Assembly: GCF_900009145.1 (NCBI RefSeq)
Contig: NZ_LN889817.1
Coordinates: 36,132 to 78,562, forward strand
From: Planktothrix tepida PCC 9214
Lineage (GTDB): Bacteria > Cyanobacteriota > Cyanobacteriia > Cyanobacteriales > Microcoleaceae
Length of the DNA stretch: 42,431 nucleotides
Reading direction: 5' to 3'
A program made the translations under genes and the position numbers. The notes beneath the pieces are model-generated. The model ran no database searches. It saw nothing but the letters and a program-made list of their open reading frames with translations, and was not told where the DNA came from. Shown piece by piece: positions 2,995 through 41,257 of this stretch; position 1 is the first letter of the stretch; the number at the start of each line of letters is the position of its first letter.

Positions 2995-5900
2995 ATGCTG
3001 ACACTATCAGGATTTGGCACAACTACTTTACTGTATAGCAGTCCCACCAGTTTAGTGTATCGGGGCTATTGGGTTGACCATGAACAGCCGGTTGTGCTGA
3101 AAGTCTTGCGGGAACAGGGACATAATCCCAAACAGTTAGCTCGGTTTCAGCGAGAATATGAACTGATTCAGTCTTTAAATCTGCCCGGTGTGGTGAAAGT
3201 TTACGGCTTAGAACACCATCACCCTCACCCGATCATGATTTTAGAAGATTTTGGGGGAGAATCTCTGACGAAATTGGGATCGGCGGGTCAGTTGAATTTA
3301 ATTGAATTTTTGCAATTAGCGATCGCCATTACTAAAAGTTTAGGTCAAATTCATGGATTTAATATTATTCATAAAGATATTAACCCTAGTAATATTATCT
3401 TAAATCCTCAGACGGGAATTGTTAAACTGATTGATTTCGGCATTGCGAGTGTTTTATCTCAAGAAAACCTTACCTTTATTTCTCCCAATACCTTAGAAGG
3501 AACCTTAGCTTATCTCTCCCCTGAACAAACGGGACGCATGAATCGTCCAATTGATTATCGCAGTGATTTTTATGCTTTAGGGGTAACGTTATATGAATTA
3601 CTCACGGGTCGATTACCGTTTCAAAGTGATGACCCTTTAGAATTAGTCCATAGTCATATAGCTAAAACTCCGATTTCTCCCCGTCACTATACAGCCTTTA
3701 GCTTACCTGACATCCTATCCGGTATTATTTTAAAATTAATGGCTAAAAATGCCGAAGATCGATATCAATCTGCTTATGGAATTAAAAGTGATTTAGAACA
3801 ATGTTTAGAACAAATTAAAACCCAGGGTGATATTGAACCTTTTCTATTAGGAAGCCAAGATTTATCCGATAAATTACAAATTCCAGAAAAATTATATGGT
3901 CGAGAACACCACCTACAAACCTTGTTAAAAGCGTTTGAACGGGTGAGTCAAGGAAACCGAGAATTAATTTGGGTTTCGGGCTATTCTGGTGTGGGAAAAT
4001 CGGCCTTAGTTCGAGAAATTCATAAACCGGTAACGGCTAAACGAGGCATTTTTATTTCAGGAAAATTTGATCAATATAAACGAAATATTCCCTATTTTGC
4101 CATTGCTCAAGCCTTAAATGAGTTTTGCCATCAAATTTTAACAGAACGGAAAGAAATATTAGAGCAATGGAAACAAAAAATTTTGGCTTTTGTAGAAAAT
4201 AAAGGACATCTTTTAATTGATGTAATTCCCCACTTAGAAAGAGTCATTGGCAAAACATCTGCCCCTAAATCTCTGGATTTACAAGCCACTCCGAATTGTT
4301 TTTTATGGACTTTTAAAAAATTAATCCAAGCGTTAATTCAACCTCAACATCCGTTAGTGATTTTTTTAGATGATTTACAATGGGCAGATTGGGCATCTTT
4401 AAACTTGATTAAAACCTTAATTCAAGATGAAACAATTCAATATTTAATGATTATTGGAGCCTATCGCCATCACGAATTAAATCTCAATCCCCCCTTAAAA
4501 TCAATCCTAGAAGTGATTAAAGAAAGCCAAGATAAAGGGTTTAAAATTATTCTCAATAATTTAAGCTTATCAGATGTTAATCATTTAATTGCTGAAGGAT
4601 TAAATTGTTCTCTGGAAATCAGTCAATCCTTAGCAAATTTAGTTTATCAAAAAACTCAAGGAAATCCTTTTTTTACTAAAGAATTTTTGAAATCCCTTTA
4701 TACAGAAGGATTATTGCAATTTCAATACCCAACTCAATTATCGTGGATACAAGGCAACCACAAAGGCAACTGGACATGGAATCTGGAACAAATTCAGGCT
4801 AAAAATATTACGAATTATTGTAATAATCGTCCTAAAAATTTACAGAAACCTGATAATATTAATTCATCCAATTCCTTAGATATTGCCAGTATTTTTAAAG
4901 CCTCTCAAGCTCTTTCACGGGAAATTTCTATTGAGCATTTACTCACCAAAATCATGAAAATTGTATTAGAAAATGCGGGAGCCGAGCGAGGATATTTAAT
5001 TTTAGAATCTGATGAACACTGGTTTATTCAAGCATCGGTAACAACTGTTCCTGATCAAGTTCAAGTTCTACAAAAGATTCCGATTGAATGGATAAATCCC
5101 CACACGAATACCCCGGAAGTTTGCAACGCTATTGTTAATTATGTAATTCATACCCAAGAGAGTTTAGTGATTCATGATGCTACGGAAGAAAATAAATTTA
5201 CCAGTGATGATTATATTCTTCTCTATCAACCTAAATCTATTTTATGTGTTCCCCTCTTGAACCAAGGAAAACTGATGGGAATTTTATATTTAGAGAATAA
5301 TTTAATGGCTGGAGCTTTTACGTCAGAACGGTTAGAAATTTTAAATTTACTGTCTTCTCAAGCCGCAATTTCCATTGAAAATGCTCGTCTTTATCAAACC
5401 TTAGAAGAAAAAGTGACCGAACGAACCCAAGCCTTACAACAAGAGATATTAGAACGTAAACGCATTGAACAAGCACTACGGGAAAGTCAAGAACGATTTG
5501 AGTTAGCCATGCGAGGTGCTAATGATGGCTTATGGGATTGGAATATTATTACAGGTGAAGCTTATTATTCCCCTCGATATCAAGAAATGTTAGGATACAC
5601 CGAAGAAGAATTTAGTTCCAAAATTGATGAATTTATTTATAGAATTCATCCAGAAGATCGAGATTCCGTTCTTAACCAAGTTTATAAATATATTTATCGG
5701 AAATATTCTCATTATGAAATTATTTTGAGAATGCGACACAAACAAGGTCATTACATTTGGATTTTAAGTCGAGGAATTGGTTTACCTGAACGTCCTCATA
5801 AAATGACTCGAATTGTGGGAATTAATATTGATATTACGGAACGAAAAAAAGTTGAAGAAGCCTTGAAAGAAGCCAAAGAAGATGCGGAAGCCGCGAGTCA

Positions 5901-7320
5901 TGCTAAAAGTGAATTTTTAGCCAATATGAGTCATGAATTACGAACCCCCTTAAATGGAATTTTAGGATATACCCAAATTTTAAAACGTTCAACAACCTTA
6001 TCTGAAAAAGAACAAGCGGGAATTCAAATTATTCATCAATGTGGAACCCATCTTCTGACCTTGATTAATGATATCTTAGATTTATCAAAAATTGAAGCAG
6101 GAAAACTAGATATCTCAGTTCAACCGATCAATTTAGAAACTTTTTTAAAAGACGTTATAGAAATCTGCGCGATTAAAGCTAAACAAAAAGGTTTAACGTT
6201 TATCTATATGCCTTTATCTCCACTTCCAACCGTTGTGGAAGTTGATGAAAAACGCTTAAGACAAATTTTAATTAATCTTTTAGGAAATGCCGTTAAATTT
6301 ACGGACTCTGGAAAGCTAACTTTTAGTTTAAAAGTCATTGATAAAGAAAAATTAACTACTTCTTTATGCACTCATCATCCTATTGATACAACCCTTAAAT
6401 TTCAAATTGAAGATACCGGAATTGGCATGAATCCTGAACAATTAGAGCGGATTTTTTTACCCTTTGAACAGGTGGCAGAGATGTCCTATCGTGCCGAGGG
6501 AACTGGATTAGGGTTAGCGATTACTCAACGATTAATTAAACACTTAGGAGGAGATTTATTTGTAGAAAGTAACCCTGGAAAAGGGAGTAAGTTTTGGTTT
6601 GAATTAACTCTTCCGGCTTCAACCCAATGGCAACCGATACCTGACGGTAATTCCTTATCTTCTATTGTAGGATTTAGAGGAAAAAAATTCAAGATTTTAG
6701 TCGTGGATGATAAACCTGAAAATCGCTTAGTGTTAGTCGATTTATTGCAACCTTTAGGGTTTGAAGTGTTAGAAGCAAGTAATGGTCAAGAAGGGTTAGA
6801 GCAACTGGAAATTACCCAAGCTAATTTAGTGATTGCTGATTTATTAATGCCGATTATGGATGGTTTTGAAATGACTCGCCGCATTCGTTCTTTACCCAAA
6901 TTCAATAATATTCCTGTGATTGCAACTTCCGCATCTGTTTATGAATGGGATCGACAGCAAAGCCATGATGCGGGATGCAATGATTTTCTTCCTAAACCCT
7001 TACAAGTTGAGGATTTACTACATAAACTTAAAACTTGGTTAAAGTTAGAATGGGAATATGATCGCCCCCAAGAAACTTGGCTTCCACCCCTTTCAGAAAA
7101 TCCGCTTACTTTAGTCATTCCCAGTCCTGAAATTTTAGATAATTTAGTTAAATTAGCCAAGCGAGGGAGAGTTTTAGAATTGGAAGAGGAAGTGATGAAA
7201 CTCAAAGCTTTTGATCCGCGTTGGAGTTTATTTGCAGATCGGATTAAGTCCATGACTCAAGAATTTCAATTAACACAAATTAAGGAGTTTCTAAATCAAT
7301 GCACAATCAACTCATTTTAA
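2995..7320 (+). CDS. Hybrid Ser/Thr kinase - AAA - GAF - PAS - histidine kinase - REC protein
   Basis: A 1441-residue sensor. Domains: Ser/Thr kinase 1-270 (Lys36, HKD 126-128, DFG 147-149, SPEQ activation end); AAA_16-type ATPase about 298-580 (Walker A GYSGVGKSAL 329-338, Walker B LVIFLDD 454-460); GAF about 640-800; coiled linker; PAS/PAC about 830-950; HisKA with His980 (MSHELRTPL); HATPase with N box near 1099 and GTGLGL at 1169-1174; REC 1230-1350 with Asp1282 and Lys1334. Family members usually carry a long TPR-like helical region between the ATPase and GAF; here only about 40 residues (600-630) are left, so it seems deleted in frame. The stop overlaps the next gene by 22 bases, indicating coupled expression. 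The input signal is unknown. Confidence 0.93.
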   Translation: MLTLSGFGTTTLLYSSPTSLVYRGYWVDHEQPVVLKVLREQGHNPKQLARFQREYELIQSLNLPGVVKVYGLEHHHPHPIMILEDFGGESLTKLGSAGQLNLIEFLQLAIAITKSLGQIHGFNIIHKDINPSNIILNPQTGIVKLIDFGIASVLSQENLTFISPNTLEGTLAYLSPEQTGRMNRPIDYRSDFYALGVTLYELLTGRLPFQSDDPLELVHSHIAKTPISPRHYTAFSLPDILSGIILKLMAKNAEDRYQSAYGIKSDLEQCLEQIKTQGDIEPFLLGSQDLSDKLQIPEKLYGREHHLQTLLKAFERVSQGNRELIWVSGYSGVGKSALVREIHKPVTAKRGIFISGKFDQYKRNIPYFAIAQALNEFCHQILTERKEILEQWKQKILAFVENKGHLLIDVIPHLERVIGKTSAPKSLDLQATPNCFLWTFKKLIQALIQPQHPLVIFLDDLQWADWASLNLIKTLIQDETIQYLMIIGAYRHHELNLNPPLKSILEVIKESQDKGFKIILNNLSLSDVNHLIAEGLNCSLEISQSLANLVYQKTQGNPFFTKEFLKSLYTEGLLQFQYPTQLSWIQGNHKGNWTWNLEQIQAKNITNYCNNRPKNLQKPDNINSSNSLDIASIFKASQALSREISIEHLLTKIMKIVLENAGAERGYLILESDEHWFIQASVTTVPDQVQVLQKIPIEWINPHTNTPEVCNAIVNYVIHTQESLVIHDATEENKFTSDDYILLYQPKSILCVPLLNQGKLMGILYLENNLMAGAFTSERLEILNLLSSQAAISIENARLYQTLEEKVTERTQALQQEILERKRIEQALRESQERFELAMRGANDGLWDWNIITGEAYYSPRYQEMLGYTEEEFSSKIDEFIYRIHPEDRDSVLNQVYKYIYRKYSHYEIILRMRHKQGHYIWILSRGIGLPERPHKMTRIVGINIDITERKKVEEALKEAKEDAEAASHAKSEFLANMSHELRTPLNGILGYTQILKRSTTLSEKEQAGIQIIHQCGTHLLTLINDILDLSKIEAGKLDISVQPINLETFLKDVIEICAIKAKQKGLTFIYMPLSPLPTVVEVDEKRLRQILINLLGNAVKFTDSGKLTFSLKVIDKEKLTTSLCTHHPIDTTLKFQIEDTGIGMNPEQLERIFLPFEQVAEMSYRAEGTGLGLAITQRLIKHLGGDLFVESNPGKGSKFWFELTLPASTQWQPIPDGNSLSSIVGFRGKKFKILVVDDKPENRLVLVDLLQPLGFEVLEASNGQEGLEQLEITQANLVIADLLMPIMDGFEMTRRIRSLPKFNNIPVIATSASVYEWDRQQSHDAGCNDFLPKPLQVEDLLHKLKTWLKLEWEYDRPQETWLPPLSENPLTLVIPSPEILDNLVKLAKRGRVLELEEEVMKLKAFDPRWSLFADRIKSMTQEFQLTQIKEFLNQCTINSF

Positions 7321-34551: not shown

Positions 34552-34562
34552 ATAAAATTTAT

Positions 34563-36016
34563 CCCTCTTCTGTCAGTCTCCGAGGAGTAAAATTAGAAAA
34601 TAAACCAGATGGGTAGCTAGAAGGGGGATAGGGTAATGGATGTAGAATTACAGATGATCAAACATTTAGCCCGAGATGCACAACCAACAGTTTCAGTGAT
34701 TGATGAATATTGTCAAGGTTATAAAGACCTATTCCCAGAAGTGAGAAGTTACGAATGTTTTAAATACTTACATCTAGGAATTATCTCACCAATTCCGAGA
34801 AAATCTTTACCGGAAATTGCTAAAATAGTAGGAATTAGGTCGCCACAATCACTGCATCATTTCTTAGCCAATTCGCCTTGGTCAGCAAGGGAATTAAAGG
34901 AAAGAAGATTAGCCCGAACTCTAAAAGCATTGAAAGGAGAGAAGATTATAGTAATAATTGATGAGACAGGAGATAGGAGAAAGGGAAAAAAAACCGACTA
35001 TATAGCTAGACAATACTTGGGAAGTGTGGGCAAAACAGATCGGGGAATAGTATCAGTTAATGCTTACGGTGTTTATAAAAATATAACCTTTCCTTTAGTG
35101 TTTAGAGTATTTAAACCCAAAGGAACATTAAAAGAAGGAGATGTCTACAAAACTAAGATTGAAATCGCATCAGAAATTCTAACAGAATTGGTTGATTGGG
35201 GATTTCAGATTGAATTGGTATTAGCAGATAGCCTTTATGGTGAAAGTAGTTCGTTTATCAGTACATTAGATCAATTTCAAATTCCTTGGGTACTAGCAAT
35301 AAGAAGTAATCATGGAGTCTGGATGTCAAGCGAGCAGAAAGTTAGAGCCAACAAATGGTGTAAATTTGAGAGGATTTTTAGCAATCAAGAATCAGAAACC
35401 AGATATATTAGAGAAATCATATTTGGGAAAAGAAGTACAAGAACCTATTGGGAAATTACCACAGATCCAGAAACGATGCCAGAAACATCAACTTCGTTTG
35501 TCATGACAAATTTAACAGAGAAGAGAAGCCAGATGAAAAAGACATTAGGTAATTTATACGGGTTAAGAACATGGGTGGAATATGGATTTCGACAATGTAA
35601 ACAAGAACTGGGTTGGACTGATTATCGGTTGACGGATTTTCCAGATATAGAAAAATGGTGGGAAATCATTTTCTGTGTGTATTTAATGATTAGTTTCAAC
35701 TCCGAAGTTTTCCGGTCTTTAAGTCAAGGCAGTCCCCGAGAATCTGAGAGCAAAAAAAACACCACCGATTGCTCAACTCATCAACAATGGAATCACAAAG
35801 AGGGATGGAAAAATGTTTTAAATAATCTGCGTTTAATAATTCAGCCTACTATTATATTGTGGTTGATTGTCCCGTGGCTAGATATTTTTCCCGACCGCCA
35901 TTTATTAGTGGGTTTTCATAAATTAATTGAGAATATTAATCAATTTCAATCTTATTTTCCCAATGGATAACTCTACTTTTTATTACTTGTTGATTTCGGA
36001 GAGTGACAGAAGAGGG
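34563..36016 (+). mobile_element. IS701-like insertion sequence, intact copy
   Basis: A 1454-bp element. Inverted ends: CCCTCTTCTGTCAGTCTCCG at 34563-34582 and CGGAGAGTGACAGAAGAGGG at 35997-36016, 19 of 20 matching. It holds one complete transposase gene. The flanking tetranucleotides are TTAT (left) and ATAT (right), which do not match, so the original target duplication has been lost by rearrangement. The right end abuts a MITE with the same end sequence. Confidence 0.88.
34636..35970 (+). CDS. IS701-family transposase
   Basis: A 444-residue DDE transposase of the IS701/DDE_5 type. The triad can be placed at Asp109 (IVIIDETGDRRKG), Asp198 (LVLADSLYGE) and a Glu near 313 (TWVEYGFRQCKQELGWTDYR, the YREK-like region). 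Other family marks are SPQSLHHFLANSPW and YIARQYLGSVGK. A GGGGGATAGGG ribosome-binding region precedes the ATG. The frame depends on a run of eight A residues at 35752-35759; the right-hand copy of this IS has seven and is out of frame there. The enzyme looks functional and could mobilise the MITE and the decayed copy in trans. Confidence 0.9.
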   Translation: MDVELQMIKHLARDAQPTVSVIDEYCQGYKDLFPEVRSYECFKYLHLGIISPIPRKSLPEIAKIVGIRSPQSLHHFLANSPWSARELKERRLARTLKALKGEKIIVIIDETGDRRKGKKTDYIARQYLGSVGKTDRGIVSVNAYGVYKNITFPLVFRVFKPKGTLKEGDVYKTKIEIASEILTELVDWGFQIELVLADSLYGESSSFISTLDQFQIPWVLAIRSNHGVWMSSEQKVRANKWCKFERIFSNQESETRYIREIIFGKRSTRTYWEITTDPETMPETSTSFVMTNLTEKRSQMKKTLGNLYGLRTWVEYGFRQCKQELGWTDYRLTDFPDIEKWWEIIFCVYLMISFNSEVFRSLSQGSPRESESKKNTTDCSTHQQWNHKEGWKNVLNNLRLIIQPTIILWLIVPWLDIFPDRHLLVGFHKLIENINQFQSYFPNG

Positions 36017-36020
36017 ATAT

Positions 36021-36448: not shown

Positions 36449-36546
36449 GCCCCTATTGCAACTCTCCATATAATCACACAGGATAAGTTTTACGGGTTTG
36501 GAATGGGGGCAGCCCCTATTGCAACTCTCCATATAATCACACAGGA
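36449..36546. repeat. Two identical 35-bp direct repeats, 63-bp period
   Basis: The 35-base unit starts GCCCCTATTGCAACTCTCCA and ends ATAATCACACAGGA; copies lie at 36449-36483 and 36512-36546 with a 28-base spacer. Geometry is CRISPR-like but there are only two units and no cas gene, and the first arm resembles a common dispersed cyanobacterial repeat (GGGGCGAACGCC-type). Confidence 0.85.
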
Positions 36547-36922: not shown

Positions 36923-37963
36923 TCAACTCAAAATCCCCCGACGTTCTTGATCTAATTCAATCGAATCAAAAAGTGCCTGGAAATTTCCTTCCCCAAAACC
37001 ATTATTTCCTTTACGCTGAATATATTCAAAAAAGATCGGACCAATACTATTTTTAGTGAAGATTTGTAAGAGAAAACCTCCTCCCTGTTCTTCCCCACCG
37101 TCAACCAGAATTTTATGTTTATGCAATTTTTCTACATTTTCACTATGGTTTGGTAAACGCTGATCAATTAACTCATAATAAGTATCTGGTGTATCTTGAA
37201 ACTCAATGCCTTGCATCGATAATTCAGTAACTGTTTGATAAATATTATTACTAGCAAGAGCAATATGTTGGATACCTTCTCCATTATATTCACGAATAAA
37301 CTCAGCAATTTGTGACTGATCGTCTTTAGTTTCATTCAGAGGAATAATTACACTCCGACAAGGACTTGCTACCACTTCACTATATAAACCTGTTTTTTTC
37401 CCATGAATATGAAATGATTTGATTTGTTCAAAACCAAATATTTTTTCATAAAAAGTACGCATACGTTCTACACCACCCTTATTGAGATTATGGGTGAGAT
37501 GATCTATTCGTTCTAAACAGGTTGCAGGATTAATATTATTAGTACGTTCATAATTAAATAAAGCAAATAAATTTTTCTCCAATTGATCATCGACCAAATA
37601 AATAAGAGAAGCACCTACACCTTGAATAGCTGGGAGAGAATAGTCTGTTTTTTCGGCGACAATAGCACCCAAAGCTATTGCTTGAGTAAATGCTTGTTGA
37701 GAGTTTTCTACCTTAAAACCAATAGCACTAGCACCTCGACCATGAATACTACGAAATATTTCAGTATTACCACCAAATCCAGGATTAGATATAAAGTGAA
37801 TATCTCCTTGACAATGCAGTGTAGTAGCAGGTGCTTCACCAAATGATCCTACTTGTCGCATCCCCATTTTGGTAAAAAGAGATAACAACAATTCAGGATG
37901 GCTACCGGAAAATTCTAAGAATGAAATAGATGATACTTTAACTTTATCACTTGATTGTAGCAT
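36923..37963 (-). CDS. hpd: 4-Hydroxyphenylpyruvate dioxygenase, proteobacterial type
   Basis: 346 residues. HPPD turns 4-hydroxyphenylpyruvate and O2 into homogentisate and CO2 at a non-haem Fe(II). Ligands are His155 (RIDHLTHN), His233 (GIQHIAL) and Glu313 (FFEYIQRKG). The IPLNE block (207-211), whose Asn contacts the substrate in HPPD and is changed in 4-hydroxymandelate synthases, is kept, and the C-terminal GFGEGNFQALF lid is standard; so HPPD is preferred over hydroxymandelate synthase. The N-terminal half (LEFSGSHPELL, GASAIGFKV, PAIQGVGASLIYLVD) is like proteobacterial enzymes rather than the usual cyanobacterial one. It follows the synthetase gene by 78 bases, with GAGGT before its ATG. 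Confidence 0.9.
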   Translation of the reverse strand: MLQSSDKVKVSSISFLEFSGSHPELLLSLFTKMGMRQVGSFGEAPATTLHCQGDIHFISNPGFGGNTEIFRSIHGRGASAIGFKVENSQQAFTQAIALGAIVAEKTDYSLPAIQGVGASLIYLVDDQLEKNLFALFNYERTNNINPATCLERIDHLTHNLNKGGVERMRTFYEKIFGFEQIKSFHIHGKKTGLYSEVVASPCRSVIIPLNETKDDQSQIAEFIREYNGEGIQHIALASNNIYQTVTELSMQGIEFQDTPDTYYELIDQRLPNHSENVEKLHKHKILVDGGEEQGGGFLLQIFTKNSIGPIFFEYIQRKGNNGFGEGNFQALFDSIELDQERRGILS

Positions 37964-38041
37964 ATTTGTAACCTCTATTAAGATAAAACAATCTGAGAGA
38001 AATATTAGTTAGTGAAAATTCATTTGCTATCTGTTACAAAT

Positions 38042-41000
38042 TTATAACGTCATATATTTGCTCAATTCTGTAGCTAAACTATCTACATATCCTTTAGTCA
38101 ATATGCCTAAATGATCACCCTCTATATTAATCACCGTCAATTGCTTAATATATTCTCCCCATCCCAAATCAATTTGCTTGGGTTCAAAATCTGAGCGCTG
38201 TGTTGCTCGAAATAATATGACAGGATCGTCGTAAGGCTCTATAACATAAGTATCAATAGCTTTTTTGCGAAAATATTCTCTAACATCAGCAAATTCATCA
38301 TCTGAATCAGTTTTAGTAGTTAGTTTTCCTTCTTGTCTCACCATATAGTCTTTATTTATCAATTTACTCCATACCTTCGCAGAGAAAGAACCCATGCCCT
38401 CATTCATCAAATGAATCATTGCTTTTCGCCAAGTGCTTAGACGATCTGCAAAACCAGGTACATGAGTATCCAGCATGGCAACCAGTTTAACTTCCTCACC
38501 TTGCTTAATTAACTCTCGTGCAACTTCTAATGCAATAATCCCCCCAAAAGATTCTCCACACAGAAAATATGGTCCTTGTTGCTGGTATTTTTGAATTGAA
38601 TTTAAATAAAGTTGAGTAATACGTTTCACATTAGGAAAATCTTGAAACTCCTGTGAATTTACTCCCTTTTGAATAACATCAATTTCTTCTTGCAGGTACA
38701 CACTACAAACAATATTCTCAATATCCAAACTGCCAGCAAGATCTTTATACAACAACACACCATATAAACAAAATAAAGGGGGTAATAAAACATCTCCCTG
38801 TTTTAATATTGTCAAATTTCCCATTTCCGGCACTATAATATCGCCTCTAATAATAGCTGCTATATCTTTAATTGTTGATCGTTCAAGTATAACAGCAATC
38901 GGTATAAATTTATCATACCGCTTTTGAACTTCTATGAGAAATTGCACAGCCAGCAAAGAATCTCCACCCAGTTCAAAAAAATCATGATTAACTCCTATTC
39001 CTTCAATCTTAAACATTTTTTCCCAGTATGCAATCAATACAGATTCTATATCATCAGTAGATGTTTCAAAAGTTGAACTAACTAAGATGTTATTAATATT
39101 TGGTGCAGGTAGTTGACTTCTATCTAATTTAGCATTGTGATTAGTAGGAAGTCTATCCAATTTAACAAAAATAGTTGGTATCATGTAGTCAGGCAGAAAT
39201 TTATACAAATGCTCTCGGATTTTGATGGCGGTTATATTAGAGTTGATCTTTAAAACTAAATATGCTATGAGAGATATATCGCTATTTTCTTCCATAACTC
39301 TGCCAACAACTACACAATCAGCAATCTCTGGAAAACGTTTCAAGTAATATTCAATTTCTGGCAACTCTACCCGCATACCCCGAATTTGTACTTGAAAATC
39401 ATCTCGTCCCAATAATTCAATATTTCCTTCACTATCAAAACGTCCAATATCACCAATAGAATAAAACCGTTCACCATCAATTTGAATAAATTTTTCAGCC
39501 GTCAACTTCTCTAGGTTTAAATAGCCTTTTACTAATCCATCTCCTGCAAAATATAGTTTACCTGGCGTTCCCATCGGTACCATATTGCCATACTTATCAA
39601 AAATTCTCACAGACATATTTTGATGCGGTTTACCAACTTTGGTTTTTTGCAAAACCATATCCCTAGATACTTGATAAGTGCAGCCCATACAACTAATTTC
39701 GCTAGAACCGTAAATTACATATACTTCGGCATTAATAAAAATTTTCTTCAATTTCTCTAAAACTTCTGGCGGAACCATATCACCACCAGAGGAAACGTGC
39801 CTGATATTATTAAATGCACTAAAATCTCCAAAATTTTCTTCAATATAGGGAAGTAACTGTTTTAATAAACTAGGTCCAAAATGAAATACTGTAATCCCTT
39901 GTAATTCTTTACATAACTGAGATAAATTGAGAACTATATCCCGATCAACTATTCTCAGTGATCCTCCAACATATAGGGGAGTTAAAATTTTAAACAAACT
40001 GATACTAAAAGTAAATCTAGCTGTTGATATAAACCGATCATTACTAGAAAATTTGTATTTGTTGCGAGCAGAAGAAAGGTACTGTACTAAATTTCCCTGG
40101 GTAGCAACCACACCTTTCGGTTTACCGGTTGTACCTGATGTAAAAAAGATATGAGATTCATGATCTAAATTAACTTTTATTTCTGGATTATTTACCGGAA
40201 AAGCATTGAGAATTTCAGCAGAATATTCTAGGTTGAATTTAGGAATATCAATATTTTCCAGAACTTCCTCCCCTTCCGAGCAAGTCAAAATTAATTGAGG
40301 TTTGACTTCTTGCAAAATTGCCAATATTCTTTCTTTAGGAAAAGTTGGATCAATAGGAACATAAACAGCCCCTACTTTATGAATTGCGAAGATAGCGTTG
40401 ATAATATCTGTTGATCGTGGCAGAAATGCGACAATTTTATCCCCTATAGCAATAGGAAATTGTAGAAAAAAATGAGCTAGTTGATTCGCTTCACAATTCA
40501 ACTGACCATAAGTAAGGTTTTTCTGACCAGCACTTACTGCCAAAGTATTAGGCGTTGTGGCTGCAAAGAATTCTATATTTTTGTAAATTGGTTTATCAGA
40601 AATTTTAACTTTTTCACCTTGAGCAAGTATTAACTGTTGCTTAATTTCATCAGGGCTTAAAATATTAAAAGAATGAATACAATGAGTAGGATTTTTTTCA
40701 ATATTATTTGCCAGGTTATATAAATGTTCTGGGATCAATTGATAACGACTGGAATCAGTATTTAAAAAAGAAATTTCGACTAATTGTTTACTATTAGTTA
40801 TGATACAGACAAATTCAACTTTAGTCATTTGCCGCAATGCTTTGGCATCATCTATTATTTGCTGAGAAAGCATTTCCTCAGATAAAAGCACAAGAACGTT
40901 TACACTATCATCATTGGTGGTTATTTTTTCAGCAGAAGAACTTTCTAGTGTACACTTAATTGATTTTGATAGTTCATCTAACGTATAGTTTATATTTGAG

Positions 41001-41257
41001 TCAAATACAAAACTTTTCTTGATAAAATCTTTAGATAGCTCTTCTACATTACTATTGGTATGTAAGTTGGTATATGAGTAAACAGGCACACGAAAAACTT
41101 CATTGTATGTGTGTTTATAGAGAACTGTACTTAAAAGGGCTAAAAATGAGGGGACACAAGATTCTACGTATTGAGAATTTATCAACTGAGATAAATCATC
41201 ATATTGCCGTATTCCAATAGATGTATCAAAGACAGAAGAGGTTTTCATTGTTATCAT
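38042..41257 (-). CDS. Monomodular NRPS-like synthetase: partial C, adenylation, thiolation, thioesterase
   Basis: 1071 residues. Residues 1-225 resemble only the C-terminal lobe of a condensation domain (FLALLSTVLYKHT; NNIEKNP; ILSPDEIKQQLI) and lack HHxxxDG. The adenylation domain (228-715) has FFTSGTTGKPKGVV (371-384), YGSSEIS, GDIGRFD, GRDDFQVQIRGMRVE and the catalytic Lys710 (NAKLDR). In motif A4 (RFTFSISLFK) the usual Asp that holds the substrate amino group is Ser418. The carrier domain has DFFELGGDSLL with Ser767; the type I thioesterase has GESFG (Ser903), Asp930 and His1049. This A-T-TE layout is that of quinone, furanone or dimer-forming synthetases using aryl keto acids. The partner HPPD gene downstream supports an aromatic substrate. 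Product unknown. Confidence 0.88.
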   Translation of the reverse strand: MITMKTSSVFDTSIGIRQYDDLSQLINSQYVESCVPSFLALLSTVLYKHTYNEVFRVPVYSYTNLHTNSNVEELSKDFIKKSFVFDSNINYTLDELSKSIKCTLESSSAEKITTNDDSVNVLVLLSEEMLSQQIIDDAKALRQMTKVEFVCIITNSKQLVEISFLNTDSSRYQLIPEHLYNLANNIEKNPTHCIHSFNILSPDEIKQQLILAQGEKVKISDKPIYKNIEFFAATTPNTLAVSAGQKNLTYGQLNCEANQLAHFFLQFPIAIGDKIVAFLPRSTDIINAIFAIHKVGAVYVPIDPTFPKERILAILQEVKPQLILTCSEGEEVLENIDIPKFNLEYSAEILNAFPVNNPEIKVNLDHESHIFFTSGTTGKPKGVVATQGNLVQYLSSARNKYKFSSNDRFISTARFTFSISLFKILTPLYVGGSLRIVDRDIVLNLSQLCKELQGITVFHFGPSLLKQLLPYIEENFGDFSAFNNIRHVSSGGDMVPPEVLEKLKKIFINAEVYVIYGSSEISCMGCTYQVSRDMVLQKTKVGKPHQNMSVRIFDKYGNMVPMGTPGKLYFAGDGLVKGYLNLEKLTAEKFIQIDGERFYSIGDIGRFDSEGNIELLGRDDFQVQIRGMRVELPEIEYYLKRFPEIADCVVVGRVMEENSDISLIAYLVLKINSNITAIKIREHLYKFLPDYMIPTIFVKLDRLPTNHNAKLDRSQLPAPNINNILVSSTFETSTDDIESVLIAYWEKMFKIEGIGVNHDFFELGGDSLLAVQFLIEVQKRYDKFIPIAVILERSTIKDIAAIIRGDIIVPEMGNLTILKQGDVLLPPLFCLYGVLLYKDLAGSLDIENIVCSVYLQEEIDVIQKGVNSQEFQDFPNVKRITQLYLNSIQKYQQQGPYFLCGESFGGIIALEVARELIKQGEEVKLVAMLDTHVPGFADRLSTWRKAMIHLMNEGMGSFSAKVWSKLINKDYMVRQEGKLTTKTDSDDEFADVREYFRKKAIDTYVIEPYDDPVILFRATQRSDFEPKQIDLGWGEYIKQLTVINIEGDHLGILTKGYVDSLATELSKYMTL

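Follow-up and report, generated by a model that had tools for sequence, protein, structure and literature searches.

We analysed a 42,431-nucleotide stretch of Planktothrix tepida PCC 9214 (contig NZ_LN889817.1, positions 36,132 to 78,562; hereafter the window, whose coordinates are used throughout), in which two genes lie next to each other on the minus strand. One encodes a nonribosomal peptide synthetase (NRPS)-like protein of 1071 residues (38042..41257, ATG start), a putative homogentisate loader to judge by its reading frame, Pfam domains, binding-pocket code and place in a tree. After an intergenic gap of 78 bases (37964..38041) follows the gene for a type I (Pseudomonas-like) 4-hydroxyphenylpyruvate dioxygenase (HPPD) of 346 residues (36923..37963, ATG start), the second HPPD of this genome. 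An earlier note on this DNA had described the pair as an orphan operon; reading frames, Pfam and coordinates agree with its account of the synthetase length, the carrier serine, the thioesterase residues and the gap, but the pair is no orphan, as it recurs in other phyla. Below, L and G numbers denote loci and genomes.

The synthetase contains adenylation (A), carrier (T) and thioesterase (TE) domains with their catalytic residues, as in A-T-TE NRPS-like enzymes. Pfam places AMP-binding at residues 231-580, AMP-binding_C at 634-710, PP-binding at 741-802 and Thioesterase at 837-939. The carrier domain (38852..39037, minus strand, as are all parts of this gene) has an intact Ser767 (codon 38957-38959), and a phosphopantetheinyl transferase (PPTase) is encoded in the same genome. 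The thioesterase (38045..38830) keeps the motif GESFG at 901-905 (GESFGG), with Ser903 (38549-38551) as nucleophile and, from the conserved columns, Asp930 and His1049 as its likely triad partners; in eight relatives the nucleophile is Cys instead (L058, the second protein of L062, L069, L070, 8483-12136 of L071, L073, L098 and L100). A-T-TE enzymes are taken to have no condensation (C) domain, and here residues about 8-200 (40658..41236) form the C-terminal lobe of one alone, in keeping with the "partial C" of the earlier note. Pfam matched no family in the first 200 residues of the window synthetase; in the homologue L008, PF00668 matched at profile positions 383-456, the last part of the condensation profile. 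In an AlphaFold2 model (mean pLDDT, the predicted local confidence score, 80.8), residues from 7-9 on align with condensation domains only from mid-domain (227 in SrfA-C, 222 in EntF, 2358 in Txo1). A search for the HHxxxDG motif found no copy in the window synthetase or ahead of the first carrier of any listed sequence; nine listed proteins have it in their second module (L056, the second protein of L062, L067, L075, L091, L093, L094, L098 and L100). The half-C domain is probably a scaffold only. Terminal C-A-T-TE modules such as EntF, SrfA-C and AB3403 share the fold and the domain order, whereas the window synthetase lacks the N-lobe of C with its HHxxxDG, and also lacks Asp235 of the A domain.

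The A domain (residues 231-716, 39110..40567) has the code SIFHVSICMK, read at positions that we set from the GrsA motifs as we take them to run. Within its A4 motif FTFSIS (39998..40015), Ser418 aligns with Asp396 of LgrA, the position of the amino-acid-binding Asp235, and the domain has therefore lost its amino-acid anchor. The same is true at all 39 loci of its clade among the matches listed, a scope that holds for every count out of 39 given here; at these loci every code has S, I and H at positions 1, 2 and 4, with F at position 3 except in L091, L097 and L099, where it is L. The window A domain combines this S-I-(F/L)-H start with membership of a monophyletic group of 39 tree rows (support 100/99), which we call the SIFH clade, and sequence comparison within the clade gave the signature VIYGSSEISCMGC (residues 514-526, 39680..39718). 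The tree left out L006 (the window contig), L008, L047, L072, L090, L092, L102 and A domains shorter than 440 residues. It nests the window and L051 with the Pseudomonadota loci L053 and L052 (99/87).

The clade spans five phyla and at least 39 non-redundant loci, made up of 25 named loci, 12 of 14 genomes of the window's order (the remaining two, G559 and G481, being the contigs of L051 and L075) and two further loci of G830. A single-protein scan of genome contigs found no relative, whereas an alignment of the A4-A5 stretch did: a profile built on it retrieved at least 25 named loci, matched 14 of 388 genomes in the window's order, and matched 2 of 174 in the order of L057's genome, one of which, G830, has three loci. 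The distribution is sporadic within the window's genus; in the window's family 3 of 61 genomes carry the clade, with an adjacent HPPD in the window only.

The window HPPD scores 340.3 bits against TIGR01263 (cut-off 277). The alignment shows the iron ligands that the earlier note had called intact, H155 (in RIDHLT), H233 and E313, together with GFGEGNF and the Pro and Asn-Glu of the PxNE loop. Its best solved relative by sequence is the Pseudomonas fluorescens enzyme 1cjx, which it resembles in full length, in the H/H/E ligands and in GFGEGNF; it differs in being the second HPPD of its genome, in lying next to a synthetase, and in its host, a cyanobacterium in which no homogentisate 1,2-dioxygenase (HmgA) was detected. 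A hydroxymandelate synthase identity was considered and ruled out by the Phe, not Ile, in GFGxGNF. The other HPPD of the genome (C26) is 41% identical over residues 149-342 and groups in the HPPD tree with cyanobacterial housekeeping enzymes; among 386 sampled genomes of the phylum, the matches to the window HPPD that rank next are 45% (G343) and 40% (G004) identical. The window genome would thus have a probable biosynthetic HPPD distinct from its housekeeping one. More generally, the cluster HPPDs fall into several lineages distinct from the housekeeping one, and one of these unites the window, L051, L057, L052 and L060 (100/100). Taken with the A-domain tree, this grouping suggests that the pair was exchanged between Pseudomonadota and cyanobacteria, in either direction.

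Far from never being adjacent elsewhere, the two genes are found together repeatedly. At 23 of 39 loci the synthetase has an HPPD-family gene as its neighbour or a few genes away: 14 of the 25 named loci, 8 of the 12 further order genomes (the window included) and one of the two further G830 loci. Counted by genome, the pair is present in 9 of the 14 A-positive genomes among the 388 of the order, for which the binomial probability is about 8e-17 if each locus has a 0.7% chance and loci are treated as independent; HPPD was found at 0 of 7 other NRPS loci of the window's family (14-20 kb each). Most paired HPPDs directly adjoin the synthetase, with one gene between them in L060 and two in L071. 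The pair stands at unrelated sites in other phyla, and gene order varies as well, the synthetase coming first in the window, L051 and L121, the HPPD first in L057 and L098-L100, and the two being divergent in L052 and L062. Searches of open-licence full text in PubMed Central, outside which most subscription papers lie, brought up no account of this gene pair, of an A domain that loads homogentisate or of a polysaccharide carrying homogentisate.

Code and dioxygenase also vary together. Beside ICMK codes, the Phe of GFGxGNF (GNF) is retained in each of the 18 aligned full-length HPPDs, a count that leaves out the truncated HPPD of L072 and that of L121, absent from the alignment. In L097 the code is SILHVMLTLK and the neighbouring dioxygenase has Ile in place of this Phe (GNI); in Microcoleus G481 the code is SIFHVMMTLK, and a near relative of the L097 dioxygenase, again with GNI, is encoded elsewhere in the genome. 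Among the aligned and tree rows, this Ile occurs in L097 and L106 only, and it fits the hydroxymandelate synthase pocket, given as Phe350, Gly351, Ser352 and Ile355 in the portion of PMC3720870 available to us. L069 and L071, for their part, have the code SIFHVTLSLK and a single-domain dioxygenase that has both His and the Glu. The pocket thus differs together with the dioxygenase in two lineages, as expected if the A domain takes the dioxygenase product.

From these observations we infer, with a probability of roughly 0.6, that the A domain loads homogentisate supplied by the HPPD. Homogentisate is an aromatic acid that serves as the precursor of vitamin E, and its ring is opened by HmgA. The two genes would form a small self-contained pathway in which HPPD converts 4-hydroxyphenylpyruvate to homogentisate (2,5-dihydroxyphenylacetate), the A domain adenylates this acid and loads it onto Ser767, and the thioesterase frees the homogentisoyl group by acyl transfer to an acceptor or by lactonisation. 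In dimodular relatives the homogentisoyl group would first be joined to a second residue; the DILQ..VWK codes of their second modules are presumably glycine-like. Part of what the earlier note had proposed would survive: the loss of Asp235 and the HPPD partnership repeated across phyla agree with aryl-acid loading, and homogentisate is favoured among its candidates. Similarly, of the two roles it had offered for HPPD, that of supplier is favoured and that of competitor is unlikely, because synthetases of this one clade have acquired HPPD partners from several lineages and because a TyrA-type dehydrogenase gene (4-hydroxyphenylpyruvate supply) is added at three loci (L062, L069 and L071). None of 21 chosen member genomes had an HmgA match over the cut-off, and a search of the window genome gave no match at 1e-10. 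A parallel exists in glycopeptide clusters, where 4-hydroxymandelate synthase feeds 4-hydroxyphenylglycine (Hpg): TyrA and an enzyme of HPPD fold give an aryl acid to an NRPS. The window enzyme differs from that route in being HPPD-like, and its acid would be loaded unchanged; the neighbourhoods inspected showed no aminotransferase.

Several observations weigh against homogentisate loading. The flanks of 16 of the 39 loci hold no HPPD, including those of G129 and G392 of the window's family, although L055, L056, L064 and L068 among them lie on short or cut contigs. HPPD is encoded somewhere in all 20 genomes examined and in 333 of 388 order genomes, so its mere presence is uninformative, and we therefore counted adjacency alone. 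The A-domain and HPPD trees are not fully congruent: the L057 A domain groups with a myxobacterial one, and L095 and L096 have a type II HPPD though their A domains sit far from other type II carriers, so partners must also have been re-matched. GNF is the common state, shared by non-cluster HPPDs of the alignment; the covariation is seen in just two lineages, L097 plus Microcoleus and L069 plus L071, and the Microcoleus GNI enzyme is not adjacent to its synthetase. The PxNE-loop Pro is replaced in type II and L061/L065 cluster HPPDs, whose product may therefore differ, and the case for homogentisate is weaker there. The closest solved chains to the synthetase are ordinary amino-acid modules, so the step from code to substrate is one that we infer. 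Finally, weak sub-cut-off HmgA matches stand beside a non-cluster HPPD in G503, G676 and G679. These matches (G503:C7:270269-271132, G676:C86:110224-111021 and G679:C34:183889-184752) may represent a divergent cyanobacterial homogentisate dioxygenase or catabolic route.

The same coupling could be real with another acid derived from 4-hydroxyphenylpyruvate, such as 4-hydroxymandelate, 4-hydroxyphenylacetate or a methylated or glycosylated homogentisate. Variant codes do accompany hydroxymandelate synthase-like (L097, L106) and single-domain (L069, L071) dioxygenases, the PxNE loop is altered in type II HPPDs, and L071, alone among the loci noted, has an O-methyltransferase gene; the window HPPD, however, keeps Pro, Asn-Glu and GFGEGNF and exceeds the HPPD cut-off, and no tailoring gene was seen directly adjoining the window pair. 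This alternative is unlikely. We consider it very improbable that the A domain takes a small amino or hydroxy acid with HPPD as a passenger. His at code position 4 (H278) and its neighbours resemble what we take to be serine codes, but Asp235 is lost throughout the clade and the HPPD partners recur from several lineages. That the two genes are chance or hitch-hiking neighbours brought together by transfer, the second HPPD feeding plastoquinone or tocopherol, is hardly credible: an IS701-family element lies beside the pair and the clade is sporadic in the genus, but in other phyla the pair occupies unrelated sites and differs in gene order, and the control loci have no HPPD.

A further alternative is the keto-acid dimer chemistry brought up in the earlier note. 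Fungal synthetases of the A-T-TE type that act on aryl keto acids (the atromentin, polyporic acid and aspulvinone enzymes) share with the window protein the A-T-TE layout, the apparent absence of a working C domain and a non-amino-acid A domain. Here an A-T-TE enzyme would couple two molecules of 4-hydroxyphenylpyruvate into a quinone or furanone, and HPPD would compete for the keto acid or regulate it. The layout is that of fungal quinone synthetases, as far as the accessible parts of PMC10316625 and PMC9047271 describe them, and Asp235 is lost. In the accessible part of PMC10316625, though, Val at code position 1 marks keto-acid enzymes, and position 5 is Asn for 4-hydroxyphenylpyruvate and Ile or Val for phenylpyruvate; the window domain has Ser418 at position 1 and Val, not Asn, at position 5, which goes against dimer formation. 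The window protein further differs from the fungal enzymes in its half-C domain, its HPPD partner, its bacterial host and its dimodular relatives, which have an HHxxxDG domain, and the partner would consume the presumed substrate. We therefore regard this chemistry as quite improbable.

As to where homogentisate might go, one GT2 (glycosyltransferase family 2) family, 40-78% identical to that of L098, lies near the synthetase at seven loci (L052, L057, L062, L069, L073, L098 and L100). Polysaccharide-type genes, as recognised by Pfam among the chosen genes scanned, occur near seven loci, two of them weakly: Wzz, export, sugar transferase and flippase genes in L053; export, Wzz, NeuB, epimerase, CTP transferase and ABC exporter genes in L059; a MurJ-type flippase, GT4 and sulfotransferase in L097; a flippase, sulfotransferase and GT2 in L098; and, in L121, a GT4 and a sugar transferase on either side of the pair itself, followed further out by Wzz, export and CapD-type genes. 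The weak cases are L072/L119 (one sugar transferase) and L120 (a scanned GT4 and an asparagine-synthase-like protein). The window and L051 gave no match in this check; on the window contig two sugar-type genes, for a GT2 and a hexapeptide transferase, are found among housekeeping genes 6-8 kb past the synthetase. Queries came from member loci, so self-matches are no proof; the independent part consists of Pfam and of the control loci, which were clean save for one sulfotransferase match in L115. Within the chosen genes scanned per locus, the sugar link is a property of part of the clade. It is possible, if doubtful, that homogentisate from the dedicated HPPD is acylated onto sugars or exported polysaccharides to give a redox-active, cross-linkable hydroquinone coat across phyla, in effect pyomelanin-like chemistry bound to the sheath; in the minimal, two-gene form of the window, a cell-surface glycan already present, or a glycosyl donor, would serve as acceptor.

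Taken together, homogentisate loading would give a testable substrate rule, SIFH..ICMK for homogentisate, in a clade of at least 39 loci and five phyla, and the gene pair, as a signature for genome mining, points to an undescribed class of aromatic metabolites. The joint variation of A-domain code and partner dioxygenase offers a natural experiment, and a true sugar link would reveal hydroquinone-decorated polysaccharides.

Other proteins near clade members may be recorded here. Between HPPD and the sugar transferase of L121 is a 296-residue protein without a Pfam match (5862-6752), a candidate for the acyl-transfer step. Downstream of GT2, L098 (16197-17894) and L100 (9933-11582) encode related proteins of about 550 residues, 68% identical, that of L098 without a Pfam match. 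Next to a clade member, L052 (12166-16875) encodes a formyltransferase-A-T protein whose A domain is interrupted by a luciferase-like monooxygenase.

In the window itself, the pair has a GC fraction of 0.333 against 0.372 in the first 36.5 kb, a weak signal. Two identical 35-nucleotide direct repeats, 63 nucleotides apart, lie at 36449-36546; their 32-nucleotide core has no other copy in the genome at up to two mismatches, and they may be a remnant, CRISPR-like with one spacer or of another kind. An apparently whole insertion element (34560-36019) separates the acetolactate synthase gene from HPPD, with an IS701-family transposase gene at 34636-35970 and a 24-nucleotide, 96% inverted repeat at 34560-34583 and 35996-36019.

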